From Candidatus Hydrogenedentota bacterium (GTDB taxonomy: Bacteria; Hydrogenedentota; Hydrogenedentia; Hydrogenedentales; CAITNO01), in assembly GCA_903893795.1 (NCBI GenBank), contig CAITNO010000146.1, positions 1 to 64,000 of the forward strand: a stretch of 64,000 nucleotides of DNA, written 5' to 3'. The position numbers were made by a program, and so were the translations under genes. Below, piece by piece: positions 61,140 to 64,000 of the stretch. Every line of letters begins with the position of its first letter. Positions within the stretch are counted from its first letter, which is position 1. Under the pieces are notes generated by a model that made no database searches, had not been told where the DNA came from, and saw only the letters and a program-made list of their open reading frames with translations.

Positions 61140-61711
61140 CATCGAAGGAAGTCATAGACATTTTCAAAGCGACCGGCGCTTTGCTGGACGGCCATTTCAT
61201 CTACACCAGCGGCCGGCACGGACGCCAGTTCCTGCAGGCGGCGCGGGTGATGCAGTGCCCGGAGCACACCGAGACGCTGTGCCGGGGCATGGCGGAAAAG
61301 TTCAAGGATGACGGGGTGGAACTGGTGGTCGGTCCGGCGACCGGTGGCATCATGCTCGCCTATGAAACGGCCCGCCACCTCAACTGCCGCTGCGCCTATT
61401 CCGAGAAGGACGGCAAGGGGGGGATGGCCGTCAAACGCGGCTTTGCGATCACGCCCGGCATGCGCGTGCTGGTGGTCGAGGACATCGTGACCACCGGCGG
61501 CTCGGTCAAGAAAACGATTGAGCACCTGCGGGAGCGTGGCGCCGAGGTGGTCGGCGTGTCGGTGCTTATCGACCGCAGCAGCGGCGAGGCCTCCTTCGAC
61601 TGCACCTACCGGCCGCTGGCCGAACTGCCTATGCAGAGTTTCGCGCCCGACGCGCTGCCCTATGACCTGGTCACCACACCGGCCGTGGAACCAGATGACC
61701 TCATTGTATGA
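61136..61711 (+). CDS. pyrE: Orotate phosphoribosyltransferase
   Basis: This 191-residue enzyme joins orotate to PRPP to give OMP. The PRPP-binding motif VLVVEDIVTTGGSV and the catalytic loop GMAVKRGF are in place. AAGGAGATGC lies just before ATG 61136, which overlaps the pyrF stop. With pyrK, pyrD and pyrF, four of the later pyrimidine genes are grouped here. Confidence 0.96.
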   Translation: MTSKEVIDIFKATGALLDGHFIYTSGRHGRQFLQAARVMQCPEHTETLCRGMAEKFKDDGVELVVGPATGGIMLAYETARHLNCRCAYSEKDGKGGMAVKRGFAITPGMRVLVVEDIVTTGGSVKKTIEHLRERGAEVVGVSVLIDRSSGEASFDCTYRPLAELPMQSFAPDALPYDLVTTPAVEPDDLIV

Positions 61712-61746: not shown

Positions 61747-61829
61747 ACATGGATAGACAGGATATACAGGATGAAAGGCATGCGAATATTCTCGTCCTAC
61801 CCTGTTCACCCGGTCCATTCATATTAATG
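61747..61829. repeat. Inverted-repeat element left of the GxxExxY gene
   Basis: ACATGGATAGACAGGATATA and bases after it are mirrored by TCCTACCCTGTTCACCCGGT further on. A related element lies to the right of the gene. The ACAGGAT-type arms are of a class repeated widely in planctomycete-like genomes. Confidence 0.6.
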
Positions 61830-61933
61830 AAAGTGTTTTGTTCGGAAGGAAATGAACAGCAGGATGCTTAGGATGACTGGCTGCTTCCTGTCGGCGCCTG
61901 CGAACAGGCTGTATTCCATAGGAGGGATTGGGC

Positions 61934-62338
61934 ATGGATGAGAAGCACGATGCACTGCTGCACGAGAAACTGACGGAGAAGATCATTGGAAGCGCATTTG
62001 AGGTGATCAATGAGATGGGTTCCGGATTCAATGAGAAGGTGTATGAGAACTCGCTTGTTGTGGCAGCAAGCCAAAATGGGCTGTCGGTCTCGGCGCAGCA
62101 CCCAATAAAAGTTATGTTCCGAGGCGTGTGCGTGGGTGAGTTCTTCGCTGACGTGCTTATCGAGGAGAAGGTTATTGTTGAATTGCAGGCGGTTAAGGCA
62201 CTCCTGCCTGAACATGAAGCGCAAGTGATCAACTACTTGAACGCCACGGGATATGAAGTTGGCCTGCTCATTAATTTCGGCAACCCGAGACTTGAGTTCA
62301 AGCGTCTCACTCGCAGGAAAGACTTCAGACAGGATTAA
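61934..62338 (+). CDS. GxxExxY protein (PDDEXK_3-like), altered catalytic residue
   Basis: This is a 134-residue small protein. The family signature GFNEKVY lies at 31-37 (G31, E34, Y37). The core resembles PD-(D/E)xK nucleases: D73 and then VELQAVKALLPEHEAQVINY, where relatives normally have E-L-K. Here the expected Lys is Q85, so nuclease activity is doubtful. GGAGGG lies 7 bases before ATG 61934. The gene is bracketed by inverted-repeat elements, which is unusual for a normal housekeeping neighbour. Confidence 0.88.
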   Translation: MDEKHDALLHEKLTEKIIGSAFEVINEMGSGFNEKVYENSLVVAASQNGLSVSAQHPIKVMFRGVCVGEFFADVLIEEKVIVELQAVKALLPEHEAQVINYLNATGYEVGLLINFGNPRLEFKRLTRRKDFRQD

Positions 62339-62380
62339 CCGGACCTCGGCTCGTTAGACGATCTTTCAAAAGAAAATAAG

Positions 62381-62459
62381 AATGTGGACAGACAGGATAA
62401 CAGGGCGGATGACGTACAGATCACTCTATCTTATCCTGTCCATCCTGTTCATCCATGTC
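62381..62459. repeat. Inverted-repeat element right of the GxxExxY gene
   Basis: GTGGACAGACAGGATAACAGG and the mirrored ATCCTGTCCATCCTGTTCATCC pattern (read in short pieces) form imperfect arms. The right arm also matches the reverse complement of the left element at 61747. It lies between the GxxExxY gene and the helicase. Confidence 0.6.
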
Positions 62460-62500: not shown

Positions 62501-64000
62501 ATGATTGCATTGAACAAAGCGCAACAGGCGGCGGTGGAGGCGGCGGAGGGTCCGACGCTGGTGCTTGCGGGCGCCGGCAGCGGCAAGACCCGCGTCATCA
62601 TCGAGCGCATGGCCTGGCTCGTGGAGGAGCGCGGCGTGGACCCTGCGCGCCTGCTGGCGCTTACCTTCACGAACAAGGCGGCGGCGGAAATGCGGTCGCG
62701 CCTGGTCGCGCGCCTTTCAGGGCGCATGGACCCGAGCCGTCCGGGCTCCTTTCTGGGGACCTTTCACTCCTTCGGTCTGCATGTGCTGCGCCGTGACATC
62801 GACCGGCTTGGCCGGAACAAGAACTTCACGGTGTGCGATGACCAGGACCAGAATTCACTCATAAAGCGGCTGGTCAAGGAATTGCCGCAGAGCTTCGAGC
62901 CCGTCACGCCGCGCGCGGCACTGTCGTGGATCAGCCGGCTCAAGCAGAACGTCGAAGTGCCGGACTGGGGGCACGACGCCAAGTATCCCGCCGAGGAGAG
63001 CTACCGCGAGCTGTGGAAACGCTATCACGCGGCGCTGGAGGCCTCTTCCACGCTCGACTTTGACGATCTGCTGGTGCTGCTGGTGCGTCTCTTTGACACG
63101 GACGACGACGCGCGCACCAAGTGGCAGCGTCGCTACACGCACATCCACGTGGACGAGTATCAGGACACGAACCGCGCCCAGTATCTCATCACGCGCTATC
63201 TGGGCGGTGAGCAGGGCAATATCTTCGCCGTCGGCGACGAGGACCAGAGCATCTACTCCTGGCGCGGCGCGGACATCAACAACATCCTCGACTTTGGCAA
63301 CGACTTTCCCCAGGCGGCGGTGTTTCGCTTGGAACAAAACTACCGCAGCACGCGCCCCATCCTGGACGCGGCAAACAGAGTGGTTTCGAACAACATCAAC
63401 CGGCTGGGCAAGTCGCTCTGGACGGACCGGGCCGAGGGAGCGCAGGTGCGCTATTACCTCGCGGAGCACGGCGACGAAGAGGGACGCTTTATCGTCGAGG
63501 ATATGGTCAAGCGCGGCCTTGCGCCGCGCGACACGGCCGTGCTCTACCGCACCAACGCGCAGGCGCGTTTGCTGGAAGAATCGCTGCTGCGACGCGGCAT
63601 CAACTACATCGTGGTCGGCGGCATCCGCTTTTACAGCCGCAAAGAAATCAAGGATATCGTCGCCTACCTGCGTTTGCTGGTGAACCCCCGCGACGACGAG
63701 TCGCTGCGGCGCATCATCAACGTGCCCACGCGTGGCATCGGCGGCATCACCCGCGACCGGTTTACCGAATATGCGGCCGCCCGGGGTTGTCCGCTCATAG
63801 AGGTGCTGCGCGAAACCGAAAGCGACGAGACACTGGCGGCGCGCGCGCGCCAGTCCGCCACCGAATTGGTCGCGCTGATTGACGACCTGTCCATCGAGGC
63901 GATCAAAGGACCTGTGGCGCCGCTGGTGGAAAACCTGCTGGAGCGCATCGGATACCGCGAATACGTCCGCCAGAGCGATGAAAAGGACTTCCGCTCCCGC
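62501..64000 (+). CDS. UvrD/PcrA/Rep-family DNA helicase, cut by the window edge
   Basis: The first 500 residues of a superfamily-1A 3'-5' DNA helicase are present, and the frame is open to the last base. Motifs in order are Q-motif LNKAQQAAV, Walker A AGAGSGKT (23-30), LTFTNKAAAEM (Ia), DEYQDTN (Walker B, D218-D222) and GDEDQSIYSWRGADI (III), then QNYRSTRPIL (IV). Such enzymes unwind DNA in repair or during replication restart. ATG 62501 has a weak ribosome site; a GTG at 62486 is possible. The family is certain; the choice among UvrD, PcrA and Rep is not. Confidence 0.93.
   Translation, partial: MIALNKAQQAAVEAAEGPTLVLAGAGSGKTRVIIERMAWLVEERGVDPARLLALTFTNKAAAEMRSRLVARLSGRMDPSRPGSFLGTFHSFGLHVLRRDIDRLGRNKNFTVCDDQDQNSLIKRLVKELPQSFEPVTPRAALSWISRLKQNVEVPDWGHDAKYPAEESYRELWKRYHAALEASSTLDFDDLLVLLVRLFDTDDDARTKWQRRYTHIHVDEYQDTNRAQYLITRYLGGEQGNIFAVGDEDQSIYSWRGADINNILDFGNDFPQAAVFRLEQNYRSTRPILDAANRVVSNNINRLGKSLWTDRAEGAQVRYYLAEHGDEEGRFIVEDMVKRGLAPRDTAVLYRTNAQARLLEESLLRRGINYIVVGGIRFYSRKEIKDIVAYLRLLVNPRDDESLRRIINVPTRGIGGITRDRFTEYAAARGCPLIEVLRETESDETLAARARQSATELVALIDDLSIEAIKGPVAPLVENLLERIGYREYVRQSDEKDFRSR

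Follow-up and report, generated by a model that had tools for sequence, protein, structure and literature searches.

The window analysed here, meaning the whole stretch of 64,000 nucleotides, carries on its forward strand a 134-aa open reading frame at 61934–62338 (ATG at 61934, last base of the stop codon at 62338), with a ribosome-binding site rated good (AGGAGG, 61920–61925, +) 8 bases 5' of the ATG. The encoded protein matched PF13366 (PDDEXK_3) with 131.6 bits against a cut-off of 22, over profile positions 2–116 of 117, and TIGR04256 (GxxExxY) with 135.1 bits against a cut-off of 35, over positions 2–115 of 116; the gene is a full-length member of the GxxExxY / PDDEXK_3 family. Upstream, a phosphoribosyltransferase gene that we read as pyrE ends at 61711; downstream, the next gene encodes a UvrD helicase and starts near 62501. 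In one relative (G004), the locus L031 shares at least 2.8 kb of identical sequence with L249, a record named as Candidatus Hydrogenedentota, which very probably places the window in this phylum.

The word ACAGGAT occurs 12 times in the 64-kb window against 5.0 expected (12 was reached in 1 of 100 shuffles), and six of these occurrences fall within 61757–62448. The initial annotation had described ACAGGAT-type repeats flanking the gene in opposite orientation, and this was borne out: the word stands forward on the left side, and the outer right arm carries it in reverse. The outer left arm (61747–61772, +) reads ACATGGAT-NN-ACAGGAT-NN-ACAGGAT, with two ACAGGAT units at 9-nt spacing, and begins at exactly the base at which the annotation had placed the start of its stretch, 61747; the outer right arm (ATCCTGTCCATCCTGTTCATCCATGT; 62433–62458, −) is its inverted match, with an alignment score of 32. 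Each side of the gene carries a worn hairpin, not one simple arm, of which the outer arm is the better half. Upstream, the outer arm is closed into a hairpin by a degenerate opposing arm (61795–61826, −), and a faint further array (ACAGCAGGATGCTTAGGATG; 61850–61876, +) lies just 5' of the gene, both read by eye; downstream, a degenerate left arm (GGACAGACAGGATAACAGGGCGGAT; 62382–62411, +) pairs with the outer right arm. A word search also located ACAGGAT within the last codons of the gene (62329–62335, +). Folded as single-stranded DNA, both hairpins are weak (z −0.33 upstream and −1.86 downstream).

The active-site strand of the window protein reads VELQ, in which E83-L84-Q85 is encoded at 62180–62188 (+) and the Gln85 codon is CAG at 62186–62188, confirming the earlier reading of ELQ in place of the expected ELK. 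The catalytic Lys of the PD-(D/E)XK ExK motif is thus absent from this copy, and the catalytic Asp and Glu of the core (D73 and E83) are both kept. Across 71 aligned genes from the window genome and its order, the window copy included, Lys occupies this position in 69, with Gln in the window copy only and Thr in one other; every one of the 77 genes aligned from named organisms has Lys here. Gln is therefore not common in the family (1/71, the window copy itself, and 0/77), and of the initial claim the missing Lys stands as a property of the window copy and forms no part of the system. Asp73 is invariant in both alignments. The QxxxY motif, which marks the RecB/Cas4 branch of nucleases, corresponds to Gln97 and Tyr101 and is retained in 76/77 named-organism genes.

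An AlphaFold2 model of the window protein (pLDDT 92.3, pTM 0.85) had Cas4 SSO0001 as its best fold match (Z 10.0 over 102 residues, rmsd 3.4), and its top Foldseek matches include exonucleases, with LHK-Exo and lambda exonuclease among the matches. As modelled, the GxxExxY family has a nuclease fold of the Cas4/RecB type, and it shares with Cas4, RecB and lambda exonuclease both this fold and the D, ExK and QxxxY residues. Cas4 carries four Cys for an Fe-S cluster, whereas the window protein is a stand-alone protein of 134 aa with one Cys; its gene also differs from cas4 in its immediate neighbours, which are of PyrE and UvrD type, with no cas1 or cas2 there. When solved structures were searched by sequence at E up to 1, the sole match was to residues 460–491 of Crov588 (681 residues, PDB 6nyr; E 6.2e-6).

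Strong purifying selection was observed in four of six GxxExxY gene pairs (dN/dS 0.035–0.075; undefined for the other two), and together with the conserved catalytic residues it argues that the family enzyme is in use. With these residues kept in the family and Lys lost in the window copy, the family has the look of active nucleases, and this one copy that of a damaged enzyme. Because its arms are also worn, the window copy is probably a decaying, inactive member of its system.

Inverted arrays around GxxExxY genes

Three GxxExxY genes were found in the window genome and all three are bracketed by inverted arrays, whose unit type differs from gene to gene: the second gene is flanked by inverted CACGAAGNN arrays and the third by CACGGAANN arrays. 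To place these flanks in context, the GxxExxY genes of the order were scored for inverted matches, of which 63/70 reached at least 24 and 56/70 at least 30. By contrast, genes for ribosomal protein L20 reached 24 in 2/30 cases and 30 in 0/30, PIN-domain genes did so in 1/26 and 0/26, and a Markov null for the order set gave 35/700 at 24 or above. The order set was made up of 30 profile-match loci, 40 fetched regions and the window genome's L001–L003; most contig-end, truncated or weak entries were left out, as were L047 (which repeats L002), L058 and L098 (no protein match) and, for the flanks, L082 (flank too short), and L078 contains two genes. The L20 control comprised 30 loci and the PIN control 26 loci from a longer table. 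A first null, in which flanks of different genes were paired, placed 28/70 above its 99% point of 44; it was judged contaminated because arm types are common to different genes, and was dropped in favour of the Markov shuffles and control families.

The same pattern was seen in named organisms, where 58/77 GxxExxY genes with usable flanks scored at least 26 versus 16/770 shuffles. This set, drawn from bacteria and archaea, consists of the best 80 of 574 loci found (three had short flanks; 77 genes were long enough for the Lys count) and spans Planctomycetes, Proteobacteria, Chloroflexi, Acidobacteria, Bacteroidetes and Methanosarcinales, among others. A 40-protein alignment was too diverse as a query and a closer ten-protein alignment was used in its place, so that the set leans to the CACAGAG/CACGAAG clade.

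The arrays usually comprise about three units per arm at a period of 8–10 nt. The best self-match spacing was 9 nt in 30, 10 nt in 14 and 8 nt in 12 of 62 order arms, and 9 nt in 25, 8 nt in 17 and 10 nt in 6 of 58 named-organism arms. At least two CRCRRA units were present in 52/62 GxxExxY arms; the ten arms lacking them include those of the window gene and of its ACAGGAT-armed relatives L061 and L066. In the order and named-organism sets, arms often lie less than 100 nt from the gene and up to ~370 nt away. The best-scoring arm pair pointed inward, with the purine-rich strand towards the gene, in 47/62 genes and outward in 15/62; such a mixture is expected if some genes have whole hairpins, not single arms, beside them. 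A few of the inverted matches counted here are not array-like by eye (e.g. L083 in the order; L250, L269, L309 and L311 in named organisms).

These data bear on whether ordinary intergenic repeats might flank such genes by chance. For the window gene, the worn arms score no higher than the maximum of 700 Markov-shuffled flank pairs (32, with a 99% point of 26), which makes chance unlikely there, although the arms are degenerate. For the GxxExxY family as a whole, the control families refute chance (63/70 versus 2/30 and 1/26), and the association recurs in other phyla, so that we give this reading almost no weight. The repeats are not placed at random relative to GxxExxY genes: bracketing by inverted arrays is a trait of the family. 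The initial suggestion of a small mobile cargo unit or a repeat-linked protein is thus supported, its repeat-linked half strongly, by an association that holds across the order and other phyla with controls.

Array type, protein clade and gene-free copies

Arm similarity was compared with protein identity for the 62 genes with arms scoring at least 26, giving a Mantel correlation of r 0.447 against a maximum of 0.122 in 2000 permutations. The correlation persisted when only different genomes were compared (r 0.45) and when only different families were (r 0.349; permutation maximum 0.136). Arms were common to both genes (score at least 30) in 60% of pairs at 60% protein identity or more and in 1–2.4% of pairs below 40%, and within single genomes none of 62 gene pairs below 45% identity had common arms at this score. 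For pairs from different genomes at 50–80% protein identity, the arms reached at least 20 in 47% (n=200) and the DNA just outside them did so in 0% (n=206 upstream, 195 downstream). Within the set, the window protein is closest to that of L061 (66% identity), which belongs to another genus and likewise has ACAGGAT arms. Unit type therefore follows the protein clade and not the host genome. Recognition of the array by the protein would predict such a match, as would tight co-inheritance under selection; inheritance as one tight unit could also give rise to it without recognition. The near-identical gene pairs L003/L067, L044/L059 and L063/L065 are orthologous loci on at least one side and not jumps. 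Two loci of one genome, L091 and L093, look like an element copied inside that genome.

Insertion sites were compared at the pyrE-uvrD junction in 17 relatives. The two genes are adjacent without a GxxExxY gene in six (G001, G002, G003, G006, G007 and G011) and were not found side by side in the other 11. Among the genomes compared, a GxxExxY gene was found at this site in the window genome only. The gene-free junctions are short in G006, G007 and G011, and that of G003 bears repeats. At the same spot in G001 and G002, two species of one genus, sits a ~200-nt gene-free element with CACAGAG-type arms (L220, L221). No target-site duplication was evident by eye against the relatives' junctions, whose flanks are highly diverged. 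The CACAGAG-type element suggests that this site may not record a clean insertion, and that here elements may land beside or replace one another or the unit type may have switched.

Arrays are also dispersed through these genomes apart from the genes. A strict three-unit pattern matched 867 arrays in 48 genomes versus 40 matches for a backward control, some of the 867 being overlapping matches in long tandem runs (e.g. G003 contig 64). Strict arrays were present in 36/39 genomes with a GxxExxY gene versus 3/9 without (Fisher p 0.0005, a test that overstates independence because four of the nine gene-lacking genomes belong to one genus and two to another), and across the 48 genomes array number rises with gene number (rho 0.54). 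The exceptions are G013, G017 and G051, which have the gene and no strict array, and G009, G025 and G048, which have strict arrays and no gene. From the listed arrays, 129 were entered for comparison with gene arms, leaving aside those of G009, G014 and G025, overlapping ones in G003 and further ones next to the gene on G001 contig 301; 20 are no more than 2 kb from a GxxExxY gene, and the other 109, in 11 genomes, lie away from one. These 109 fit the gene arms of their own genome (label permutation p 0.0018), in a test that replaced an earlier version with 75 hand-chosen arrays from eight genomes (p 0.001).

For the ACAGGAT type, ACAGGATNNACAGGAT occurs 25 times in the window genome (7.0 Mb) and 0 times for the backward control, and ACAGGAT pairs number 198 in 40 genomes versus 2 for controls. 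The three genomes with an ACAGGAT-armed gene have 25, 18 and 42 such pairs (p 0.002). Against strict pairing, G001, G019 and G032 have 26, 18 and 16 ACAGGAT arrays and no ACAGGAT-armed copy among the flanks read (seven copies in G001, two in G019 and none usable in G032, some contig-end copies being excluded). Array type thus matches the types of a genome's own genes, but loosely. The gene-free inverted doublets are dispersed and mostly intergenic, as judged by one ORF-based proxy in the window genome, in which 11 of the 25 ACAGGAT pairs lie inside an ORF of at least 150 aa although such ORFs cover 93% of the loci. Nine ACAGGAT hairpins fetched from G019 (L319–L327) have near-identical cores and largely common edges, and are apparently the product of a recent burst of amplification. 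At the locus L016/L017 (G000 contig 74), an ACAGGAT hairpin has 7-nt repeats resembling ATTCTGAATTCTGGATTCT in its loop, which gives the impression that a repeat of one class had landed inside a repeat of another.

It is conceivable that the arrays belong to a mobile or recombining element driven by an unlinked enzyme, with the GxxExxY gene merely riding inside. No transposase was found among the ORFs between the window arms, the window gene is still bracketed while seemingly catalytically dead, and some genomes, as above, hold many arrays with no matching gene found there. We nonetheless consider a passenger role for the gene unlikely, given that the array class is specific to GxxExxY (at least two CRCRRA units in 52/62 arms, versus 0/19 arms of four-helix-bundle genes and 0/9 of GIY-YIG genes), that the protein clade predicts the unit type, and that the tested pairs are under purifying selection with catalytic residues kept in most copies.

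A function in place would be another explanation, in which the arms, as RNA or DNA structures, keep down the expression of a toxic nuclease or label self DNA for it, and the dispersed copies are remnants. Cas4/RecB-type nucleases are potentially toxic, and both the closeness of many arms to the gene and the scarcity of ACAGGAT pairs inside long ORFs would fit regulation or immunity. Taken alone, however, such a function leaves the hundreds of arrays in 48 genomes unexplained, most of those checked (109/129) being away from a gene; G019 holds near-identical repeated copies, and Rfam returned no family match for the stretch. We regard this explanation as improbable.

Other repeat-flanked gene families in the same genomes

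Inverted flanks were also found around two further gene families. Stand-alone GIY-YIG genes had them in 9/11 cases (11 stand-alone loci out of 30, after exclusion of 19 long uvrC-like frames). By eye, eight of these nine (L130–L133, L135–L137 and L141) are palindromes of the CGTC or TGTC type, examples being CGTCATTGCGAGCGAAGCG and GGATTCCCGC...GCGGGAATGACG. They look like the CGTC REPs and dRS3 repeats, which are reported to be without a transposase dedicated to them. At L330 (G032, contig 143) an ACAGGAT-type array, of the class otherwise found with GxxExxY, lies directly 3' of a GIY-YIG gene, and no matching upstream array was present in the stretch of sequence inspected.

Genes for four-helix-bundle proteins (23S_rRNA_IVP; L099–L121) had inverted flanks in 19/21 cases, with a 7-nt period in 18/19 arms. 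This set held 23 of the 24 above-cut-off loci among 30 fetched, the marginal L122 being left out, and two of the 23 had short flanks. The 7-nt units, for example GGGTCTA and AGGCTTT, form a class distinct from the GxxExxY arrays, and we presume that they may relate to the cyanobacterial heptanucleotide STRR repeats.

A proposed repeat–enzyme pair and its relation to known systems

Taken together, the explanation we favour, and hold to be reasonably probable, is that GxxExxY serves a class of interspersed hairpin repeats as their cognate enzyme, that the gene-free arrays are its dependants, and that the window copy is a dying member. Each element would consist of a Cas4/RecB-type PD-(D/E)XK gene between inverted arrays of about three units at a period of 8–10 nt, and gene-free inverted arrays of the same type would be non-autonomous dependants of the gene-bearing element. 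Most likely, the enzyme would recognise its own element's array once this has folded into a hairpin, in DNA that is single-stranded or cruciform, and would then nick or trim it. Host replication or repair may in turn place copies of the repeat, or of the gene-bearing element, at further intergenic sites, since nuclease-made ends at the enzyme's own hairpin could serve these processes in copying the hairpin elsewhere. Recognition, cleavage, the route of copying and movement by GxxExxY are what we infer from the genomic patterns described above.

The closest parallel is the RAYT/REPIN system (REPtron). As described in PMC3116915 and PMC3733652, this comprises an enzyme gene between short inverted repeats together with dispersed, gene-free inverted pairs, and several flavours may occur in one genome, each beside its own enzyme gene. 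In the GxxExxY system, likewise, inverted cognate repeats bracket the enzyme gene (63/70), gene-free inverted doublets are dispersed, and several array flavours come with matching enzymes. RAYTs are thought to spread REPINs, and the same role is proposed here for GxxExxY by way of an unrelated fold. The two differ in both partners: RAYTs are HUH tyrosine transposases and REPs are GTAG-tagged stem-loops, whereas GxxExxY proteins are PD-(D/E)XK proteins of Cas4/RecB type and their arrays consist of about three units spaced 8–10 nt. An HUH motif and a Y1 transposase match were absent from the window protein, which at E 0.001 matched nuclease families and nothing else in Pfam and NCBIfam; GxxExxY is not a RAYT, because it is not an HUH transposase. 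The TIRYT/TIRtron, in which the inverted repeats around the enzyme gene are longer and in some cases make up dispersed families (PMC3733652), also differs in its protein fold, again that of an HUH tyrosine transposase.

A homing endonuclease gene is comparable to the GxxExxY gene in being small, in encoding a nuclease and in possibly spreading by way of cuts that the host repairs. The partner of a homing endonuclease is one allelic target site, whereas the conserved partner of GxxExxY would be its own flanking repeat with many gene-free copies. Among the matches listed in a search of the open-licence literature, none described such repeats around GxxExxY genes.

More broadly, many prokaryotic palindromic repeats might each have a dedicated partner gene: RAYT for REPINs, GxxExxY for ~9-nt arrays, GIY-YIG for CGTC REPs and four-helix-bundle genes for 7-nt arrays. 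Three unrelated folds would then spread or maintain hairpins alike in the same genomes, a tentative generalisation to which we give slightly less than an even chance.

The reading put forward here proposes a role for a protein family that is widely annotated without function, and equally for interspersed repeats found in many phyla. It suggests that repeat–enzyme pairs like REPIN/RAYT may have had more than one origin, from different enzymes, and the clade-specific arrays supply ready matched and mismatched substrates for assays of the GxxExxY enzymes.
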